Positions 7,446 to 17,374 of a stretch of 64,000 nt of DNA are shown here, in pieces. This stretch comes from Geminocystis sp. NIES-3709. GTDB lineage: Bacteria; Cyanobacteriota; Cyanobacteriia; Cyanobacteriales; Cyanobacteriaceae. The position numbers were made by a program, and so were the translations under genes. The notes under the pieces were generated by a model. It made no database searches. It had not been told where the DNA came from and saw nothing but the letters and a program-made list of their open reading frames with translations. The stretch spans positions 682,001 through 746,000 of the forward strand of contig NZ_AP014821.1 of the NCBI RefSeq assembly GCF_001548115.1. The letters run 5' to 3'. The stretch's first letter is position 1. Each line of letters starts with the position of its first letter.

Positions 7446-7519
7446 GGGTGCGTAGCTCAGATGGATAGAGCAACTGCCTTCTAAGCAGTCGGTCACAGGT
7501 TCGAGTCCTGTCGCACCCG
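7446..7519 (+). tRNA. tRNA-Arg (anticodon TCT)
   Basis: A full cloverleaf can be drawn. The acceptor stem is GGGTGCG (7446-7452) with CGCACCC (7512-7518) and discriminator G7519. The D stem is GCTC/GAGC. The anticodon stem ACTGC/GCAGT encloses loop CTTCTAA, giving anticodon TCT. The T arm is ACAGG TTCGAGT CCTGT. CCA is not encoded. The gene stays intact because the adjacent transposon starts 37 bp beyond its 3' end. Confidence 0.97.
7499..7518 (+). other. Homing target: GTT PAM plus 17-nt protospacer in tRNA-Arg
   Basis: G7499-T7500-T7501 matches the GTN PAM reported for Cas12k. The next 17 nt, CGAGTCCTGTCGCACCC (7502-7518), are identical to the spacer of the guide RNA encoded at 7650-7666 on the minus strand. 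The PAM comes from the T-loop GGTTCGA motif shared by nearly all tRNAs. The match ends exactly at the last acceptor-stem base; the next base differs. Confidence 0.9.
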
Positions 7520-7555: not shown

Positions 7556-7640
7556 TGTACAGTAACAAATTATTTGTCATCGGTAACAGATTAGTGTCGT
7601 CTTAACAAATTAGATGACGTGATAACAGATTAATGTCGTC
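7556..7640 (+). repeat. CAST right end with four TnsB-site-like repeats
   Basis: Begins with the terminal TGTACA. Four direct copies of a TAACARATT-n-TGTC-like motif follow, starting near 7562, 7583, 7602 and 7622, about 20 bp apart (for example GTAACAAATTATTTGTC and ATAACAGATTAATGTCGTC). This is the arrangement of TnsB binding sites in V-K transposon ends. The guide RNA spacer begins only 10 bp further in. Confidence 0.88.
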
Positions 7641-7649
7641 TAAATGATT

Positions 7650-7892
7650 GGGTGCGACAGGACTCGCTTTCAATTCTCAAAGAGAATTCTTCCTCGATCG
7701 AAAGTGATTTGCTAACCGCTATAGCAGTACACCTGCACCCTTATTGCTGGGAGTGCGCCTAGTTTCTCTATCCTAAGATAGACAGCATCAGGGCAAGTAG
7801 TTAGCAGGAGCCGAAAGCAAACTTCTTGTAAAAAGTAAACTACTCCTCATTTTTCATAGAACAGAGGTTGTTAAAACTTGATCTACGGCACT
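7650..7892 (-). ncRNA. Natural single-guide-like homing RNA: tracrRNA copy fused to a repeat and tRNA spacer
   Basis: Read on the minus strand from about 7892, this is a diverged copy of the V-K tracrRNA at 8523-8748. Shared blocks include GCCGTAGATCAAGTT, GAAAAATGAGG, TTTGCTTTC, CCTGATGCTG and GCACTCCCAGCAATAAG. Where the normal tracrRNA ends in its anti-repeat, this copy continues AATTCTC, loop TTT, GAGAATTGAAAG. That is an anti-repeat/repeat hairpin matching the 3' end of the CRISPR repeat in form. A 17-nt spacer CGAGTCCTGTCGCACCC follows, identical to the tRNA-Arg 3' end. The whole layout matches engineered Cas12k single guides. Stems differ from the other copy in sequence but still pair. 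Transcription was not observed; the 5' end is inferred from a TATAAT at 7899-7904. Confidence 0.87.
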
Positions 7893-7898
7893 ATTGAA

Positions 7899-7904
7899 AT
7901 TATA
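7899..7904 (-). promoter_or_regulatory. Candidate -10 box of the fused guide RNA
   Basis: The minus strand reads TATAAT seven bases before the inferred RNA start at about 7892. No good -35 hexamer is seen 16-18 bp upstream. The corresponding position before the normal tracrRNA lacks a TATAAT, so the two guides may be expressed independently. Confidence 0.5.
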
Positions 7905-7985: not shown

Positions 7986-8321
7986 CTTTCAATCCCTAGA
8001 GAAGGTATTTTCTTATTTCAACAGATTTAATAGAGCAGATGATGGTGGTACTGAATTTAACTTTCAATCCCTAGAGAAGGTATTTTCTTATTTCAACATA
8101 TTTATAATTAATTTTTTAGTATCTTTCATTTTTCTTTTTCTTTCAATCCCTAGAGAAGGTATTTTCTTATTTCAACTTTGACGTAAGTCGTCAAACCCAC
8201 CGTATCCAGCACCTTTCAATCCCTAGAGAAGGTATTTTCTTATTTCAACATTGTTCTACCAAACCTATCATATCTTAAAGCTGTCTTTCAATCCCTAGAG
8301 AAGGTATTTTCTTATTTCAAC
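7986..8321 (-). CRISPR. Type V-K CRISPR array, 5 repeats and 4 spacers
   Basis: Five identical 37-bp repeats at 7986-8022, 8061-8097, 8140-8176, 8213-8249 and 8285-8321. In guide orientation (minus strand) each begins GTTGAAATAAG and ends CTCTAGGGATTGAAAG, the typical V-K 3' end. Spacers are 38, 42, 36 and 35 bp (8023-8060, 8098-8139, 8177-8212, 8250-8284). No repeat shows degeneration, and there are no cas1 or cas2 genes, as usual for V-K. Spacer 8177-8212 contains the palindrome TTTGACGTAAGTCGTCAAA. None of the spacers obviously matches sequence in this window. Confidence 0.96.
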
Positions 8322-8522: not shown

Positions 8523-8748
8523 ATAGAGATTCCTCCTTGGTCGGAGGTGATTTGATAACAACTACATTGGTAAACCCAAACTCTTATTACTGGGAGTGCC
8601 CCTTGTTTCCGCACTTTATTCAGTGCGCAGCATCAGAGAGAGCAGTTATCAGGGACAGAAAGCAAACCTATTACTAGGCAAACTACCCCTCATTTTTCAC
8701 AGAACAACAGAACAGGGGTTAATTTAACTTGATCTGCGGCACGATTAC
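8523..8748 (-). ncRNA. Cas12k tracrRNA
   Basis: The minus strand downstream of cas12k resembles known V-K tracrRNAs block by block: GCCGCAGATCAAG, GAAAAATGAGGGGTAGTTTG, TTTGCTTTCTG, CTGATGCTGC and GCACTCCCAGTAATAAG, then ATCACCTCCGACCAAGGAGG. The bases AATCTCTA (8531-8524) can pair with TAGGGATT in the repeat over 8 bp with one G-U, identifying the anti-repeat. Short hairpins such as CCTA-GTAA-TAGG and GCAC...GTGC are visible. Ends are approximate. Confidence 0.88.
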
Positions 8749-8779: not shown

Positions 8780-10630
8780 CTATTTCTTCTTGAGATTTTT
8801 TTCAGTAGCACTCAAAACAAGTTGTAAGGCTTTTTCCGTCAATGTGCCTTGTTTTGGTTGTTTAGCTTCTACCACGACAATACCAACTTTTTCGCAGATT
8901 AACTTCACGTTTTCAATCAATCTGCCATAACTCCATTGATGGACTTGGACTCGATAATCTTGAGCATATTTCTTTTGCCCTTCCTTGTATTCGGGAATTT
9001 TCTTCTCCGCCCTGAGTTGAATTTCTGCTTCAGTAATCGATCGCATATCCCTTAATCGAGGAATAAGAATCGTTGATACTTGATATTCTTGAGCGACAGT
9101 AAGAATAGCTTTAGCAATCAGTCGATCGAGGTATTCTCCCAAATTAGACTCTCCTTTTTGTTGAAAGTTAAATCTTTTTCTGGCTTTGTGGTTTTGATGG
9201 CTCAGTTTTTGTTTTTCTATCCTCCGTCTTCTCAATAGCCGATAATCTTCTCTTAGCAGTTGTTTCGTATTTCGATAAGTGATTACTTTATCTGTCTCTA
9301 TATCAACAATGGCGATGGTGACAGGTTGTTCTAATCCCATAGCTATTCCTAAATGAACATTAGGTTTTCCTTGATAAACAGGTTTACTAGGTCGAGGAAA
9401 AGTATTATTGAGTTTCGCTAGAGTAGAATTTTTACGACGAATAAAAGCCTGTTGAGAATCGCTTAATTCCTCTTTTGCTTTCATCAAATCGATTATCTTG
9501 GTAACTTCTTTTTGCTTTTCTTCTACGATCGTACTCGTACCTTCTGCCGTCAAACAACGAGTTTCAAAAGTACAATGTAAATAGAGTTTATGTCTATCCC
9601 ATAATTCACCTTTTCCCTCATCTTCCTTCCAAAGGATCATAGCTGAACGGAGGGTAAATAAAGCACTCGACAATTGATCTTTACTAGCTTTTTTTAATTC
9701 CTGATCCTCATAAAACCTCTGAAAATAAGGTAATTGACGATGATCGCAGCAGAGTTGAAAAGAATGCTCTCCTAAGCCACTAAAACGAATGGAAAGACGA
9801 TTTTTCTCATTGAGACTCCATTTTAAATCCTCGTTGGTTTCGTAAAGAATCGGATAGGGAATTGATGACTGATTTTGTTTGAGAATGGAAAACCAAGTAT
9901 TTGCTTCCGTTTGATCAATAGGGGCAGTAGTAGAAGCAGTAATGAGAGTATCAAGCCACTTTTTATCTTCTAAATCCCTTCCTAAAGGTATTCGACTTTC
10001 AATTTGTCTGTGTAATTTGGTAATTTTAATCTCAACTTTACGCTTTAAATCTTGATATTTTTCCGTTGTTTCTGGTTTCTTAGGGATAGTACAACCATTC
10101 TTGAGTAGATAAATAATCGCACTTTTTATCTCAGGCTTTTTTGTTTTGCCACACTTCTCAAAAAGAATTGTTGAAATTCGATCGTGACTGACTGTTGAAT
10201 CTATAGAGTCAAGAATCAAAGTAGCTTGTTGTTGTAAGGATTCCAAAGAATTATCAAAATGTTTAATTAATTCCGTGTCAGGCAATAGCATTTCTACCCA
10301 ACGAAGATTACCTTGTAATTTCCAATCTAAGGCTTTTTGAACTTCAAACCATGACTTGTAAATATAGTCGATGACTTTGTTAACAGAGGCATAAAAACGG
10401 GATGGTTGTTCTTCAAAAGGGTAATTATTCTTGAGTTCGGCTATTTGTCGGGCTAAGAAATCTTTAGGTAATCTTTTCTTTGTTCTCCAGTGGGGGAAGT
10501 CAGGATGTTGCTTTATCCTTAACAAAATTTCGTTGATAAGAGGAGTATTCTTTTGTGCCATCAACTGCCAAAGAAATTGACGGGTATCACGAGAAGCGAT
10601 CAAACGACATTGGATAGTGACGTGAGCCAT
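8780..10630 (-). CDS. cas12k: Cas12k, RNA-guided target-binding effector (nuclease-dead)
   Basis: Effector of V-K CASTs. It uses tracrRNA/crRNA or a fused guide to bind a GTN-flanked target and recruits TniQ and TnsC, leaving DNA uncut. The start MAHVTIQCRLIASRDTRQFL and NTPLINEILLRI...HPDF match the Cas12k N terminus. At 616 residues it is close to the family size of about 640. The RuvC-I region (about residue 440, HLGIAMGLEQPVTIAIVD) has no catalytic aspartate at the usual place, as expected. It is divergently transcribed from the MerR gene across 63 bp containing a palindrome. The tracrRNA follows immediately downstream. Intact, no frameshift. Confidence 0.96.
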   Translation of the reverse strand: MAHVTIQCRLIASRDTRQFLWQLMAQKNTPLINEILLRIKQHPDFPHWRTKKRLPKDFLARQIAELKNNYPFEEQPSRFYASVNKVIDYIYKSWFEVQKALDWKLQGNLRWVEMLLPDTELIKHFDNSLESLQQQATLILDSIDSTVSHDRISTILFEKCGKTKKPEIKSAIIYLLKNGCTIPKKPETTEKYQDLKRKVEIKITKLHRQIESRIPLGRDLEDKKWLDTLITASTTAPIDQTEANTWFSILKQNQSSIPYPILYETNEDLKWSLNEKNRLSIRFSGLGEHSFQLCCDHRQLPYFQRFYEDQELKKASKDQLSSALFTLRSAMILWKEDEGKGELWDRHKLYLHCTFETRCLTAEGTSTIVEEKQKEVTKIIDLMKAKEELSDSQQAFIRRKNSTLAKLNNTFPRPSKPVYQGKPNVHLGIAMGLEQPVTIAIVDIETDKVITYRNTKQLLREDYRLLRRRRIEKQKLSHQNHKARKRFNFQQKGESNLGEYLDRLIAKAILTVAQEYQVSTILIPRLRDMRSITEAEIQLRAEKKIPEYKEGQKKYAQDYRVQVHQWSYGRLIENVKLICEKVGIVVVEAKQPKQGTLTEKALQLVLSATEKNLKKK

Positions 10631-10675: not shown

Positions 10676-10693
10676 CATTTTATAATTGTGTTT

Positions 10694-11113
10694 ATGAAAG
10701 AAAGGTTTTTTAGCAGTAAACAAACATCATTAATTACAGGTTGTTCCCTCCGACAATTGCAGTATTGGAGGGATAAGGAGGTTATTGTCCCTTTTATTCA
10801 GGGTACGGGTACGGGCAAAACGATCTATTATTCCCCTGCGGAGTTGGTGGAAATCTCGATCATGGTATATTTGCTCTCAGTAGGGTTGAGTTTTGAAATT
10901 GGGCAAATTATTTTATCTGACTTGAAGGAAAAAGAGCGAAATTTTCGTAATCCAGATTATAAAGGGCGTTTTATGATTATCCCTAGGGATGGCAAAATGT
11001 CTCTTTTATCCTATGAACGGGAAAAGGCGATCGAACTTCTTGATCAGGGGACTTCGATCGTGCCTTTATGGTTAGATAGGATTCATGAACAATTGAAGGA
11101 AACGTTAGGTTAG
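10694..11113 (+). CDS. cvkR: MerR-type transcriptional regulator (CvkR-like)
   Basis: A MerR-like winged helix protein of 139 residues. The DNA-binding part is FFSSKQTSLITGCSLRQLQYWRD (about residues 5-27), with a wing near VPFIQGTGTGKTIYYSPAEL. CvkR is the MerR-type repressor known to control cas12k and guide RNA expression in V-K systems. Position and divergent orientation next to cas12k fit that role. The frame opens at GTG 10688, but I prefer ATG 10694. A TATAAT at 10681-10686 would make the message nearly leaderless, while the one at 10663 gives a leader of about 19 nt. The symbol is by position and family. Confidence 0.8.
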   Translation: MKERFFSSKQTSLITGCSLRQLQYWRDKEVIVPFIQGTGTGKTIYYSPAELVEISIMVYLLSVGLSFEIGQIILSDLKEKERNFRNPDYKGRFMIIPRDGKMSLLSYEREKAIELLDQGTSIVPLWLDRIHEQLKETLG

Positions 11114-11357: not shown

Positions 11358-11547
11358 GGGATTTTGGTACGCAGAAAAACCAAAAGGAGGGCCAGATTGG
11401 ATAATTCGAGCTCAATTATTATTCCCTAAGAACCAATAAAATTAATACTGCGATTATTGCTTTTGCGGTGAACGCACATTGAAAAATAGCTCACCTTTTT
11501 AAATTAACCTCAAATTTTGTCCCTAAATGAGCTACAATAGGAATCAA

Positions 11548-13654
11548 ATGAAAATTAACCAAACAATCTTGTTATCTCTAGCGATCGCGCTCTTTAGTGC
11601 TATTAGCTCTTCTGTCTTGGCTTCTGGTGGTGGCGGGGTTGTAACCGATCCTGGAGCGATCGAAGGTAAACACTTTGCTCCCAAGGGAAAGATGCCCTCG
11701 AAATTTACGATTGAACTTCAAAATGGTTTAAGGAAAACCTTACCTTTTGATGACAAACGGGATTTTGAAGAAGCTAAAAAAGGATTTATCGCCGCTCCTT
11801 CCTTTAAACAAATCATGGCCGAGGCGGGTAATGTAGCCTGGGACATGGGCAGTTACGAATTTCTCTTACAGGGCAAGGATTTTGACAGTGTTCATCCTTC
11901 TTTGCAACGTCAAGCTATTTTAAATATGGCCTACGGACTCTATGAGGTTTTGCCAGGCAAAATTTACCAAGTACGGGGTTTTGATCTCGCTAACATTACT
12001 TTTATTAAAGGTGATACAGGTTGGATTGTTTTTGATCCGCTAACTGCCAAGGAAACAGCCCAAGCGGCTCTGAAGTTCATTAATGAAAAACTCGGTGAAC
12101 GCCCCGTCGTCGCGGTAGTTTATTCCCATTCCCATACAGATCACTTTGGCGGAGTGCGCGGTGTGGTAGATGAAGCCGATGTGCGATCGGGCAAATTACA
12201 GATTCTTGCCCCCGTTGGCTTTATGGAACACGCTATTTCCGAAAATGTCTATGCAGGCAACGCGATGAACCGTCGTTTGTTTTACCAGTACGGTGTCCTT
12301 TTACCTCGAAGTCCCTTTGGTCATGTGGATCAATCCATCGGGAAAAATACGGCGGCGGGAAATAGTGGACTCATTCCTCCCACGAAGTATATCACCAAGG
12401 ATATTGAAGAAGTGACCATTGATGGCGTAAAAATGGTTTTCCAGAATACACCAGGCACGGAAGCTCCCGCAGAAATGAATACTTGGTTTCCTCAGTTCAA
12501 CGCATTTTGGGCCGCCGAGAATATTACAGGGACAGTGCATAATATTTACACTCTGCGCGGTGCATTGATTCGTAATCCGTTGGAGTGGTCAAAACAAATT
12601 AACAATTCTCTTTATCTTTTTGGTCAACAAGCGGAAGTAATGTTTTCGGCTCACAGTTGGCCTCGTTGGGGAAACGATCGCATTCAAGAGGTGATGCGAA
12701 CTCAACGTGATATTTACGCCAATTTGAATAATGAGGTGTTATTTCTTGCCAATAAAGGGGTGACAATTAATGAAGTACAAAATGTTTATCATCCCCCCCA
12801 AAAGTCTGCAAAATCAATGGGCGGCCCACAGTTATCACGGATCTGAAGGTCATAATAGTCGGGCGGTAATTAACCGTTATTTGGGTTATTGGGACGGAAA
12901 TCCTGCGACATTGCTTCCCCTTTCTCCCCGCGATTCGGCTCCGTTGTATGTGGAGATGATGGGCGGTTCTAGTAAAATTCTGGCTAAGGGTAAACAACTC
13001 TATGACCAGGGCAAATACCGTGAAGCAATGGAAATTGTGAATAAACTAGTCTATGCCGAACCTCAAAATCAAGCGGCTAAAGACTTATTGGCCGATGCTT
13101 TTGAACAATTTGGCTATCAGCAGGAAAGTAACAGTGTCCGTAATAGTTACCTCGCGGCGGCCTATGAGTTGCGCTCGGGTATTCCGACGGGAAAATCCGC
13201 TAAATCTTCTGGCCCTGATGTCATTCGTGCCATGCCGACTAACCTCTGGCTAGATTTTCTCGGTATTCGTCTCGACAGTAAAAAAGCCGAGGGACTGAAA
13301 TTTACCGTTAACCTGATTACGCCCGATAATGACGAAAAGTATGTGGTGGAATTGAGCAATTCAACTCTGACCAATATTAAGGGATTCCAAGCTCCTAACC
13401 CTGATTTGACGATTACGATTAATCGCACCGATCTTGAAGCCGTGATGATGGGTGCGGCAACCTTGGATCAACAAATTACTTCTGGTAAAGCTAAGTTGGT
13501 TGGCGATCGCCGTCCCTACGATCAGCTTAAGAATATTTTAGTCCAGTTCACCCCAGACTTTGAAATGATGCCCGGAACTAAACCAGTGAAACTCGCGATA
13601 CCCAATCCAAATCCTTTTGAGCAGGAACCTCTGGGAGATACAACGGGAGGATAA
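11548..13654 (+). pseudogene. Alkyl/aryl-sulfatase (SdsA/BDS1-like), cargo gene with a frameshift
   Basis: Zinc metallo-beta-lactamase-fold sulfatase that would hydrolyse primary alkyl sulfates such as SDS. The first frame (11548-12846) gives a signal peptide MKINQTILLSLAIALFSA and the metal motif SHSHTDHFGG near residue 200. The second frame (12770-13654) continues with SLQNQWAAHSYHGSEGHNSRA and ends with the SCP2-like C-terminal domain (LTITINRTDLEAVMMGAA). The break is at a C7 run, 12793-12799: with six C the protein would read ...NVYHPPKSLQNQWAA. Apart from this it looks complete at about 700 residues. It could be a pseudogene, a slippage-regulated gene or a sequencing error. ATG 11548 is preferred over 11527 for the signal peptide and a nearby AGGA. 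It seems richer in G+C than the flanks. Confidence 0.85.
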
Positions 13655-13885: not shown

Positions 13886-14368
13886 TTACGATTGTGGCAT
13901 TTGTTCAAAAGGAGTAAAGCATCGATGACAAAAACCCTCAAACCAAAGGTTAGGAAATTTGAATCTTGCCGCACAATTTGGACATTCTGAGAGAATATTT
14001 AGGTTATGGCGATCGCACCGATAAATCTCCTTATACTGCCATGACATCTGATGATAAGGGTTTTCACCATAACAAGCAGAACAAATACGAATAGGAGTCA
14101 TTTTCATGGGTGCAGAAGGAAACATAGTTTGTAAAGTTGCCATTTCTACTTGTACAATCTCACTTAATTTCTCCAACTGTTTAAGGGAAGGCGGAGGATT
14201 AAAACGAAACTTCTCCCAACGGGCGATCGCACTATATAACCCCGTTGCTTGTCCTAAACCACCACAACTTAAACTATTTGCCCTTCTAAATCTACCGAGA
14301 AAATGACTAATGCTTTCACCTTCATAAGGAACAAGAATAAATAACCAGTTTTGAATTTGCAAATCCAT
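13886..14368 (-). CDS. tniQ: TniQ, target-site adaptor of the CAST
   Basis: Small TniQ that bridges Cas12k and TnsC at the target. 160 residues, typical of V-K versions and much shorter than the Tn7 TnsD. The N-terminal part reads VPYEGESISHFLGRFRRAN. A zinc-binding part follows with ICSACYGENPYH, CDRHNLNILSECPNC and FCHRC. Its ATG overlaps the tnsC stop by one base (TAATG), indicating translational coupling in a tnsB-tnsC-tniQ operon. Confidence 0.94.
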   Translation of the reverse strand: MDLQIQNWLFILVPYEGESISHFLGRFRRANSLSCGGLGQATGLYSAIARWEKFRFNPPPSLKQLEKLSEIVQVEMATLQTMFPSAPMKMTPIRICSACYGENPYHQMSWQYKEIYRCDRHNLNILSECPNCAARFKFPNLWFEGFCHRCFTPFEQMPQS

Positions 14369-15195
14369 TATTTGAACTCCTGTGTAACTTCTTTCAGAAT
14401 CTCAAAAGTAATCTTATTAAGTCCTCTTTTTAAAGAGCGAATGGCAGATTCCCTCAAGATTGTATCCATTAAGCCGATATATCCTCCCGTTGCCTCTGCG
14501 ATCAGTTTTAGCATTTTCGTCTGAATCAAATTAGAAGCCACAGGCAGTTTCAAAACTTGCTTTTCCCATATATTGACCGTATTTTGAAAATCAGCACCTG
14601 ATAACTTTCCAAAACGATAGCAACTACGGAAACGGTTATAAACCTGTTCATCTCTCTTAATTACAGTATCAAGGCGATCTGTACCAACTAAAACTATGGG
14701 AATATTGAGACGATCGAATATATCTCTTACTTCCGCAAAAGTTTTAGGCTTAAAACGATCAGCTTCATCGATAATGATCATTTCGACTCCACATCCTTGT
14801 AAAACCTTGATTGCCCGTTGTCGAATTTCTGCTATCGTTCCCTTTGTCATTTGATACTTAAGGTATTCAATAATGCCTTGAAATAGCTCTTTTGTGCCAC
14901 AATCTTGAGGGATTTGGATATAAACAACAGGCACTTGAGGAGGATGTCCTACTTTTTGGATTGGTTTATGTCTTAATCGGTAAGAATCACAAGCCATTGT
15001 TTTTCCTGTGCGAGACTCTCCCACAACTCGACAAGACTGTTTTGATTGACGTTTGCCCTCAAAATATTCATGAAGTTTTGCCACCTGCTCTAAACTAACC
15101 AAAGTTTTGCTATTTAATCGTTCAATTTCCATTTGTAACTTTTCTTCAGGTATTTCGATGTTACCTAACTCTTGTGCGATTGCCTTTGCTTCCAT
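14368..15195 (-). CDS. tnsC: TnsC, AAA+ transposition regulator
   Basis: ATPase that polymerises on target DNA and links the Cas12k-TniQ complex to TnsB. 275 residues, the V-K size. Walker A is GESRTGKT (residues about 63-70) and Walker B is MIIIDEAD. A sensor-like stretch IPIVLVGTDRLD and the arginine-rich YNRFRSCYRF follow. It begins 9 bp after the tnsB stop and overlaps tniQ by one base, so the three genes form one operon. Confidence 0.95.
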   Translation of the reverse strand: MEAKAIAQELGNIEIPEEKLQMEIERLNSKTLVSLEQVAKLHEYFEGKRQSKQSCRVVGESRTGKTMACDSYRLRHKPIQKVGHPPQVPVVYIQIPQDCGTKELFQGIIEYLKYQMTKGTIAEIRQRAIKVLQGCGVEMIIIDEADRFKPKTFAEVRDIFDRLNIPIVLVGTDRLDTVIKRDEQVYNRFRSCYRFGKLSGADFQNTVNIWEKQVLKLPVASNLIQTKMLKLIAEATGGYIGLMDTILRESAIRSLKRGLNKITFEILKEVTQEFK

Positions 15196-15204
15196 AATTA
15201 TCTC

Positions 15205-16872
15205 CTAAAATCCATAATCATCTTGTAACTGTGAATAATCAAATACTTCTACTATTGGTTCTTCTGACATATCAGTATCGGTAGCCTTGTCAGTTTGTTC
15301 TTTGACTTCCTTGAGTACAGGGGAAGGAATATAAGGCTTTACCTGTTCTTGTTCTTGCCGTTGACGTTCTTTTTTGGTTTTTTTGTCAGAGAAAGTATGT
15401 CTTTCTTTCACCTCCGCCAAGATCGATCTATTGCTGAGATTTTTTCCTGACTCTCTTACCTTTTTGGCACTTGCCTTAGCATCTTCCCAAGACATTGATT
15501 CAGTTTCCAAATCTAGCCCATAGGCACGAGTTAAAAAGACTTCCTTATTACCCTCATTACGGTAAACCAGAATAGCAGTAATATCTCTGGGGTCATAACG
15601 TAGAATAACGGTTTCTCCTTCATAACCTGCCAGATATTCCCCTTGATACATCAAGTTTTCAAACTGAAGATAACCACCTTTTTGCACACGTCGGCGAGAC
15701 TGTTTCATAAGGCATATATCTAAGTCTCTTTCCGAGAGAAGATCAGGAATAGAAAGTAGTCCCGAATCCCAACGCTGAAAACGAGTTTGTTCACCCATAC
15801 GAGCATCCATACGCTGATTGTAGTTATCAACGATATAGCGGACAATAATTCGTTCCAATTGTCTGAGAGTAAGACTTGCATCCTTTTCAGCATCTTCAGA
15901 TCTTTCCTGTACGTTTCCTCCTGTATATCCAGGTAAAGTAGAAAATACCTCTGTATTCAAAGTTTTGAAAGGGCGCTCTACTACTCCCCCTTCACTAGGG
16001 CGACTTCGCAAATGACAAGTAAAACCGAGTTGTAATCCAATTTGTTGAAGATGATTAGAACGAAAATCCTTACCCCCGTCAGTGTAAAAATACTCTGGTT
16101 TACCGTAAGTGCCCCATTCCTCGTGTAACCCATAGTCAGAACTATAACTTTTCAGTAACATAGCATGACGTAGAGCCAGAGATACTACTTGGGAGCTAGG
16201 AGCATCAAAACCAAGATTGATACCCATAATACAGCGAGAATAAGTATCTACAACTGTCGTTAGCCAAGGTCTGCCCAATAACTGACCAAATTGATCCACC
16301 AAAAGAATATCAGCACGAGTATGGTCACATTGCCAGGCATGATTACTATACTCCACATTAATTTCATTTCCCGATCTAGTGGATACAGCTAATTTGGTAC
16401 CTCTCCATCCTGGATTTCTCACTCTTTTTTTATTCTCTTTCTCCTCAATAATAGGATTTAAGATTCGATAAACAGTCATGTGAGAAGGTGGATCAATAGA
16501 CCATTCCTTGGCTTGAGCCATGGTTCGCAAATATACCTGTTTCGGACTTATTCTTTTACTACCTTTGTTACCCTCCCGATAAGTTTTAACAATAAAATCC
16601 TGTAAACGCTTTTCAATGCGATAAGTGCCTTGATCTGATCTATTTCCTTTTTTTATTGCTAATAATCCTTTTTCCTCCCATTCTTTGATATATCGTTGCA
16701 CTGTTCTAACGGATTTATTTAGTGTTTCGGCTGCTTTCTTCAATTTTGCTCCATAAGTTTTTCGATCGCATGGCTGAACTAAATCTTCAATAACATCTGC
16801 GATCGCCTGTTCTTCGGGAGAAAGTTGAGAAATCAGTTCCTGAGATTCAGAAATTTGATTTTCAATAGTCAT
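15205..16872 (-). CDS. tnsB: TnsB, DDE transposase
   Basis: Binds the transposon end repeats and joins 3' ends to the target by a DDE mechanism. It has N-terminal helix-turn-helix segments (LNKSVRTVQRYIKEWEE), then an RNase H-like core with catalytic residues in WQCDHTRADILLVDQFG, TVVDTYSRCIMG and SEGGVVERPFKTLN, then a beta-barrel and a charged C terminus. A TTG codon opens the frame at 16902, but ATG 16872 (MTIENQ) fits the family start better, giving 555 residues. An end-type repeat at 16927-16942 lies over the probable promoter, suggesting autoregulation. Without TnsA it should make cointegrates. Confidence 0.95.
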   Translation of the reverse strand: MTIENQISESQELISQLSPEEQAIADVIEDLVQPCDRKTYGAKLKKAAETLNKSVRTVQRYIKEWEEKGLLAIKKGNRSDQGTYRIEKRLQDFIVKTYREGNKGSKRISPKQVYLRTMAQAKEWSIDPPSHMTVYRILNPIIEEKENKKRVRNPGWRGTKLAVSTRSGNEINVEYSNHAWQCDHTRADILLVDQFGQLLGRPWLTTVVDTYSRCIMGINLGFDAPSSQVVSLALRHAMLLKSYSSDYGLHEEWGTYGKPEYFYTDGGKDFRSNHLQQIGLQLGFTCHLRSRPSEGGVVERPFKTLNTEVFSTLPGYTGGNVQERSEDAEKDASLTLRQLERIIVRYIVDNYNQRMDARMGEQTRFQRWDSGLLSIPDLLSERDLDICLMKQSRRRVQKGGYLQFENLMYQGEYLAGYEGETVILRYDPRDITAILVYRNEGNKEVFLTRAYGLDLETESMSWEDAKASAKKVRESGKNLSNRSILAEVKERHTFSDKKTKKERQRQEQEQVKPYIPSPVLKEVKEQTDKATDTDMSEEPIVEVFDYSQLQDDYGF

Positions 16873-16926
16873 AGCTGATATTTTTATGTTTAATAAAATC
16901 AAAGTTGATGTGTACTTATTATTCTA

Positions 16927-17164
16927 TGACATTTAATCTGTGAATTGCCACTCAAAAACAAAAAAAATCGCCTTTTCCGAAGGCGACATCTAATTTGTTA
17001 TTTTTAGGGAAAATGACACTTAATTTGTTAATCTATTTTAAGATACAATCGAGTGTGATTTTAGGGTAAGGATAAGTTATAATTGTTGATATATAAGGAT
17101 TTTAAGAGTCTTATTTTTAGATGACACGAATTTGTTATCACGACAAATAATCTGTTACTGTACA
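16927..17164. repeat. CAST left end with five TnsB-site-like repeats
   Basis: Repeats in inverted orientation to the right end start near 16927 (TGACATTTAATCTGTG), 16984 (CGACATCTAATTTGTTA), 17014 (TGACACTTAATTTGTTA), 17122 (TGACACGAATTTGTTATC) and 17141, with the terminal ...CTGTTACTGTACA ending at 17164. Outer copies are adjacent and inner ones spread out, unlike the even spacing of the right end. Confidence 0.88.
16956..16986 (-). terminator. Rho-independent terminator inside the left end
   Basis: TCGCCTT-TTCCG-AAGGCGA (16968-16986) forms a 7-bp stem. On the minus strand it is followed by a run of eight T. It would stop transcription entering from outside the element towards tnsB, acting as an insulator upstream of the tnsB promoter. 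Confidence 0.7.
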
Positions 17165-17374
17165 AGATTTTTTATCAAAGTTATTCAAAAGCATTTTCAG
17201 ACTGATTTTTAACTTTTCCATCAATTTTATTTTAATAAGTAGTCAAACAATTACTGCCAAAATTAAAACAAGGATAGCAAAATAGAGCTTCTCGTCCACT
17301 TTCTGATAGTGTGTGTTTTTCTCTCAAATTACCTTTAATTGAAATTAGATCAAAAACTAAGTGGCTAAGTGGCA

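Follow-up and report, generated by a model that had tools for sequence, protein, structure and literature searches.

Laboratory single guides for Cas12k are built in the order tracrRNA, anti-repeat, short loop, repeat end and spacer, and the guide described here, found in a 64,000-nucleotide stretch of Geminocystis sp. NIES-3709 DNA (the window), has the same order. In nature, delocalised crRNAs of V-K CASTs with 17-nt spacers against tRNA genes are established in the available portions of five papers (PMC9938897, PMC11406308, PMC11656645, PMC8649781, PMC12719977). These delocalised, or anchor, crRNAs resemble the guide of the window in target class, spacer length, PAM, position at the transposon end and presumed homing role (available sections of PMC9938897 and PMC11406308). 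The L-tracrRNA of Streptococcus Cas9 is, like it, a tracrRNA that carries its own guide: this long tracrRNA form has a 9-bp match to the cas promoter, which it represses, and it is named a natural single-guide RNA in the title of reference 21 of the same source (PMC8730458, in part). A further likeness is with the TnpB omega-RNA, where one long RNA guides the effector of a mobile element (excerpt of PMC10097598).

Apart from its fused guide, the element in the window is an ordinary V-K CAST with a five-repeat array and its own tracrRNA. Cas12k (616 aa, minus strand, 8780-10630) matches NF038191 with 832 bits (cut-off 150) and PDB Cas12k chains with E ~1e-185, and its best segment is 94% identical to Cas12k of Geminocystis sp. 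GBBB08. The array tracrRNA, recognized by tracrRNA comparison, adjoins cas12k at 8525-8742 and is followed at 7986-8321 by the CRISPR array, with five 37-nt repeats (repeat length by eye); both lie downstream of cas12k on the same strand, as in V-K CASTs. A MerR-type regulator (PF13411, plus strand, 10688-11113) occupies the CvkR position described for V-K CASTs in the accessible part of PMC9938897. TniQ (13886-14368, PF06527), TnsC of the TniB family (14368-15195, PF05621) and the TnsB transposase (15205-16902, PF09299, with rve under its cut-off) are all encoded on the minus strand, and no Pfam or NCBIfam TnsA-family match was obtained among the seven ORFs of at least 100 aa between 8780 and 16902; Cas12k together with TnsB, TnsC and TniQ, and without TnsA, is the composition of a type V-K CAST. 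The cargo at 11527-13654 includes an alkyl sulfatase-like gene split across two overlapping reading frames. The same genome carries a second V-K CAST (L060, G000:C1:1553911-1555716), which has one tracrRNA, no array that we could see, and a homing guide of the usual separate kind, directed to tRNA-Thr.

A second tracrRNA copy sits between the array and the transposon end. On the minus strand, from 7891 to 7650, the tracrRNA body (7689-7891) runs unbroken into an anti-repeat, AATTCTC (7688-7682), a TTT loop (7681-7679), a truncated repeat, GAGAATT (7678-7672), the motif GAAAG (7671-7667) and a 17-nt homing spacer (7666-7650). This copy is 75-93% identical to the array tracrRNA (8742-8525) in ungapped blocks. 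The truncated repeat begins 9 nt beyond the end of the tracrRNA profile match, that is, it is not separate from the tracrRNA, and tracrRNA and guide form one contiguous unit in the DNA. The original prediction, that a second tracrRNA copy runs into an anti-repeat/repeat hairpin followed by GAAAG and a 17-nt spacer, is therefore confirmed by the sequence and by the alignment with the array tracrRNA.

The spacer is a 100% inverted repeat, over its 17 nt, of positions 7502-7518, the 3' end of tRNA-Arg(tct) (plus strand, 7446-7519), the attachment-site gene that lies just outside the element. The PAM, GTT, is directly 5' of this protospacer, the four 5' bases being GGTT; the window thus has the short spacer matching the insertion-site tRNA and the GTN PAM that characterize a delocalised homing crRNA. 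A match by chance is excluded because all 17 of 17 positions agree at the right PAM and because the arrangement recurs with other spacers at other tRNAs. The transposon end beside the tRNA (7556-7649, defined by sequence and direct repeats) consists of the TGTACAGT terminus and repeated motifs, which we take to be TnsB-type motifs. The far end, read by eye, is at 17159-17164 (...ACTGTACA), which gives the element a length of about 9.6 kb from the TGTACAGT terminus at 7556 to the ACTGTACA terminus at 17164. The segment directly outside this far end (17179-17322) is itself a repeat, present elsewhere in relatives (G391, G119). From the start of the protospacer to the element end there are 54 bp, and PAM-to-end distances of V-K delocalised guides are 46-82 nt, with one exception of 147 (PMC9938897, in the portion available). 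By eye, no 5-bp target duplication is recognizable flanking the element (attga / agatt), nor flanking its relative L197 in genome G056. Comparison of the matches to the rbfA flank and the histidine-kinase flank in relatives shows no clean empty site, because both sit far from tRNA-Arg there; L195 and L196 have a tRNA-Arg(tct) without a transposon end within the 260 nt printed beyond the tRNA.

These features suggest, with a probability of about 0.8, that the product of this locus is a single-guide RNA of natural origin, used by Cas12k for homing to a tRNA gene. A duplicated tracrRNA would have been joined in cis to a 17-nt anti-tRNA spacer through a short anti-repeat/truncated-repeat hairpin; the unit would have a promoter of its own and yield a single transcript of about 240 nt, and this RNA would load Cas12k and direct TniQ, TnsC and TnsB to insert beside the target tRNA, while the array and the first tracrRNA would serve other targets. 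We infer the promoter, the one-piece transcription, the Cas12k loading and the homing activity of the fused guide from this arrangement. Homing without an array or a separate tracrRNA would likewise be expected, mainly from the relatives L046, L057 and L072, in which the fused guide is the only one seen (Cas12k being broken in L072). Such a guide differs from the V-K delocalised crRNA, whose truncated repeat lies apart from the tracrRNA, in being joined to a dedicated tracrRNA copy, and from the L-tracrRNA in being a second tracrRNA gene whose repeat and 17-nt spacer serve the homing of a transposon. It differs from the laboratory Cas12k single guides in being encoded by the element and in having a natural loop of 3 nt and a repeat variant of its own. 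We know of no tracrRNA or repeat origin for the TnpB omega-RNA, unlike which the one-piece state would here be secondary, derived from a two-piece CRISPR guide. A fused tracrRNA is not mentioned in the available portions of PMC9938897, PMC11406308, PMC11656645, PMC8649781 and PMC12719977, and no report of a fused V-K guide appeared among the titles and abstract openings found by a word search whose reach did not include the primary V-K homing papers.

The frequency of the fused form was estimated in overlapping sets of genomes searched for Cas12k: 386 of the phylum (44 matching at E<=0.001, 36 above the cut-off), 388 of the order (129 matching, 100 above) and 15 of the family (8 matching, all 8 above). 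From these matches a subset of 120 stretches was fetched and, with the window and L001 added and L134 removed (its contig is that of L001), this made 121 loci for examination, some of them short or with only a piece of Cas12k; a contig scan with a single protein yielded two loci, one a short fragment. A long tracrRNA profile match was found in 106 of the 121, and the fused form in 12 of the 121. Seven belong to the family of the window (the window, L001, L057, L058, L068, L072 and L121), two to one other family (L039 and L046), and three to two further families (L096, L104 and L113). Two long tracrRNA copies are present in nine loci of the 121, and in all nine the second copy is fused. Among the 72 loci in which the gap could be measured, having both a tRNA-matching guide and an upstream tracrRNA match, nine have 9-46 nt between the end of the tracrRNA match and the guide, and the other 63 have 202-3279 nt; three further loci have a guide without a tracrRNA match, and L001, L058 and L072, although fused, do not count among these nine, since none of them has a tRNA match that satisfied the filter. 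A search of other V-K CASTs for tracrRNA copies ending in a spacer, which the original prediction had named as a check, was thus positive, by profile searches and blastn rather than with a covariance model (in the mixed alignment A1, repeats are out of place where the fused guides are distant). With blastn, 6 of the 15 family genomes gave matches, which added two fused guides (L190 and L191), two relics (L192 and L193) and one piece, L194, in which decay has gone further; L137 is a relic without a tracrRNA body. There was no match to the fused guide in the plasmid collection and none to Cas12k in viral contigs. The L191 guide (L191:8007-8231) lies with a transposon end at tRNA-Leu(tag), and no Cas12k or Tns gene was detected in 18 kb; its element is possibly non-autonomous or very large. 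We did not count as fused L100 and L102, in which tracrRNA and truncated repeat are about 80 nt apart with no array seen, an arrangement that might be an intermediate on the way to fusion, nor L110/L111, in which a repeat is near the tracrRNA but the homing guide candidate is elsewhere.

Fused spacers are directed against a range of tRNA genes, namely Arg(tct), Leu(gag), Arg(acg), Thr, Phe, Ser, Val, Asn, Asp and Leu(tag). Over 17 positions there is no mismatch in the window (Arg(tct)), L039 (Thr), L046 (Phe) and L104 (Val), and one in L057 and L068 (both Leu(gag)), L121 (Arg(acg)), L096 (Ser) and L113 (Asn); judged by eye, L190 at tRNA-Asp, L191 at tRNA-Leu(tag) and the relic L193 match at 16 of 17. 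The relic L192 matches its own tRNA-Arg at 17 of 17, the base that distinguishes its spacer from that of the window being the same as in the local tRNA-Arg gene. Less clear are L001, with a 45-nt tRNA-Arg fragment about 190 nt past the guide, L058, where no tRNA adjoins the spacer, and L072, whose spacer does not fit the neighbouring tRNA-Arg(acg) within three mismatches. In L057, L096, L113 and L121 the single mismatch has C in the tRNA and T in the spacer, so that a wobble pair is retained, and the same change is seen by eye in L190, L191 and L193; L137 has two mismatches of other kinds, and C-to-T is also the commonest change in separate guides (9 of 30).

A TATAAT box (minus strand, 7899-7904, by eye) lies 7 nt before the conserved GTGCC start of the fused copy in the window. 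By eye, TATAAT is upstream of the fused start in all five two-copy loci of the clade (the window, L001, L068, L121 and L058) and in L191, and L190 has TATAGT. A -35/-10 scan of the window placed no site over the box and found as many sites as in shuffles. In L068, L121 and L190 the TATAAT or TATAGT stretch resembles a degenerate CRISPR repeat by eye, as if the last repeat had turned promoter. Of the array, L058 has one repeat at most, and no array was seen in L046, L057 or L072. L046 and L057, in which only the fused guide is seen, have an open Cas12k frame beside it. L057 and L072 are chimeric when compared with their sister loci L058 and L068: their promoter and 5' tracrRNA are of the array tracrRNA type, and their 3' part is of the fused type. 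L057 and L058, which share a genome, are 99.0% identical over 2445 bp up to the chimera switch point and 97.7% identical over 3049 bp in their TnsB-TnsC-TniQ regions. The chimeric structure and this identity are best explained by recombination between tracrRNA copies, which would have removed the array from L057 and L072 and left the one-piece guide alone.

The fused copies do not group as a single lineage. A tree of 110 tracrRNA rows places them in three clades, each of them separated from the array copies that accompany the fused ones; in the family of the window, the seven fused rows (support 100/99) are distinct from the five array partners (99/95). Three changes remain when the last 22 nt (the anti-repeats) are trimmed and nine long-branched rows left out, and a single clade of all fused rows is then rejected (AU p=0.0015). 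A Cas12k protein tree of 112 rows, made by a quick method without bootstrap, also needs three changes, and it places the clade of the window and L096, L104 and L113 in one starred group, with the separate, long-branched L055, so that two origins could also account for the data. L123, labelled separate within the clade of the window in the Cas12k tree, has lost nearly all of its tracrRNA: its Cas12k frame is open, the tracrRNA is cut after about 40 nt and followed by the transposon end beside tRNA-Asp, and no guide was seen. We consider it somewhat probable that two-piece homing guides became one-piece two or three times independently, by tracrRNA duplication and fusion with a delocalised crRNA, and that recombination then produced array-free, home-only 'single-guide CASTs'.

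Compensatory changes were sought in an alignment of seven fused and five array copies of the clade of the window, the chimeras L057 and L072 being left out. Of 58 consensus pairs, 18 have both bases replaced in one or more copies and still pair, a count to be read with the reservation that this alignment also served to predict the structure and that some changes fall within one kind of copy. The share of cells that pair in two helices chosen by eye from the alignment is 96.2%, a value that none of 500 shuffles attains; shuffles give 83.4% and slid partners 40-55%. The first helix has two-sided change in five of its six pairs. In the same test, neither the six pairs with two-sided change (reached by 29 of 500 shuffles) nor the 11 further pair types (reached by 500 of 500) are outstanding. 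The RNA as a whole does not fold with unusual stability (z=-1.61; matched by 13 of 200 shuffles). With hand-chosen segments, the fused repeat forms a better duplex with its own anti-repeat than with the anti-repeat of the array tracrRNA in eight of nine loci, the exception being L104 (cis -3.0, cross -3.7 kcal/mol) and the margin being small in L113 (-4.1 and -3.7 kcal/mol). The anti-repeat and truncated repeat of fused copies have thus moved together, away from the array repeat.

Free folding gives a more mixed picture of the hairpin. For 7 of the 11 fused guides that were folded (L121, L058, L057, L072, L039, L046 and L096), the proposed pairs reach a probability of about 0.5-1.0, and for L001, whose minimum-energy fold contains the hairpin, about 0.2. 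In the window, AATTCTC/GAGAATT pairs at 0.04-0.05 (0.05-0.07 with the spacer), the hairpin being a minority structure because CTTTC can pair with GAAAG instead, and L068 is similar (0.1 or less). L113 folds at full length into an inner stem with its repeat end unpaired, its isolated segment does pair, and in L104, of which the isolated segment alone was folded, the stem is absent. With so weak a hairpin in the window, L068 and L001, the guide halves need not be held together, and the fused unit might be transcribed but cut between anti-repeat and repeat, yielding an ordinary two-piece guide whose halves are merely adjacent. The long imperfect stem of L113 could serve as a processing substrate for such a cut, and dual-RNA guides are the rule where a tracrRNA is used (accessible text of PMC8730458). 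However, the loops of 3 nt in four of the five folded hairpins of the clade offer little to a double-strand nuclease, and the joint divergence of repeat and anti-repeat from the array repeat also speaks for a unit that stays together, so that we regard cleavage as improbable.

That the spacer-bearing RNA is a regulator, with guided Cas12k repressing transcription at the tRNA or at the element end, has a Cas9 precedent in the L-tracrRNA (PMC8730458, as far as available), but the position, the 17-nt length, the GTN PAM and the insertion spacing are those of known homing guides (PMC9938897, same limit), and the spacer varies with the tRNA that adjoins the element; we give regulation very little credence. 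Hardly more plausible, and if anything less so, is that the second copy is a decaying, functionless duplicate whose spacer is a fossil of a past insertion: L137, L192, L193 and L194 hold mere pieces of the unit and L072 adjoins a broken Cas12k, yet 18 of the 58 pairs kept pairing through two-sided change, fused copies persist as a clade in six genomes of the family, and most spacers still match the adjoining tRNA. Cleavage, regulation and decay are therefore less likely than a natural single homing guide, which best accounts for both the anatomy and the comparative data; the one-piece homing function originally proposed for this locus is in this sense supported.

Such a guide would trace how, in nature, a CRISPR guide made of two RNAs can become a single one, and through it the origin of delocalised guides can be put to the test. 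As compact natural scaffolds, fused guides might also be of use for RNA-guided insertion, together with the Cas12k to which they belong. For the transposons themselves, the fusion may represent a split, at the level of RNA, between homing to the chromosome and array-guided targeting. Nature offers, in the array-free elements, a test of whether one-piece guidance is sufficient and, if the proposed course of events is true, single-guide CASTs without an array can only home.
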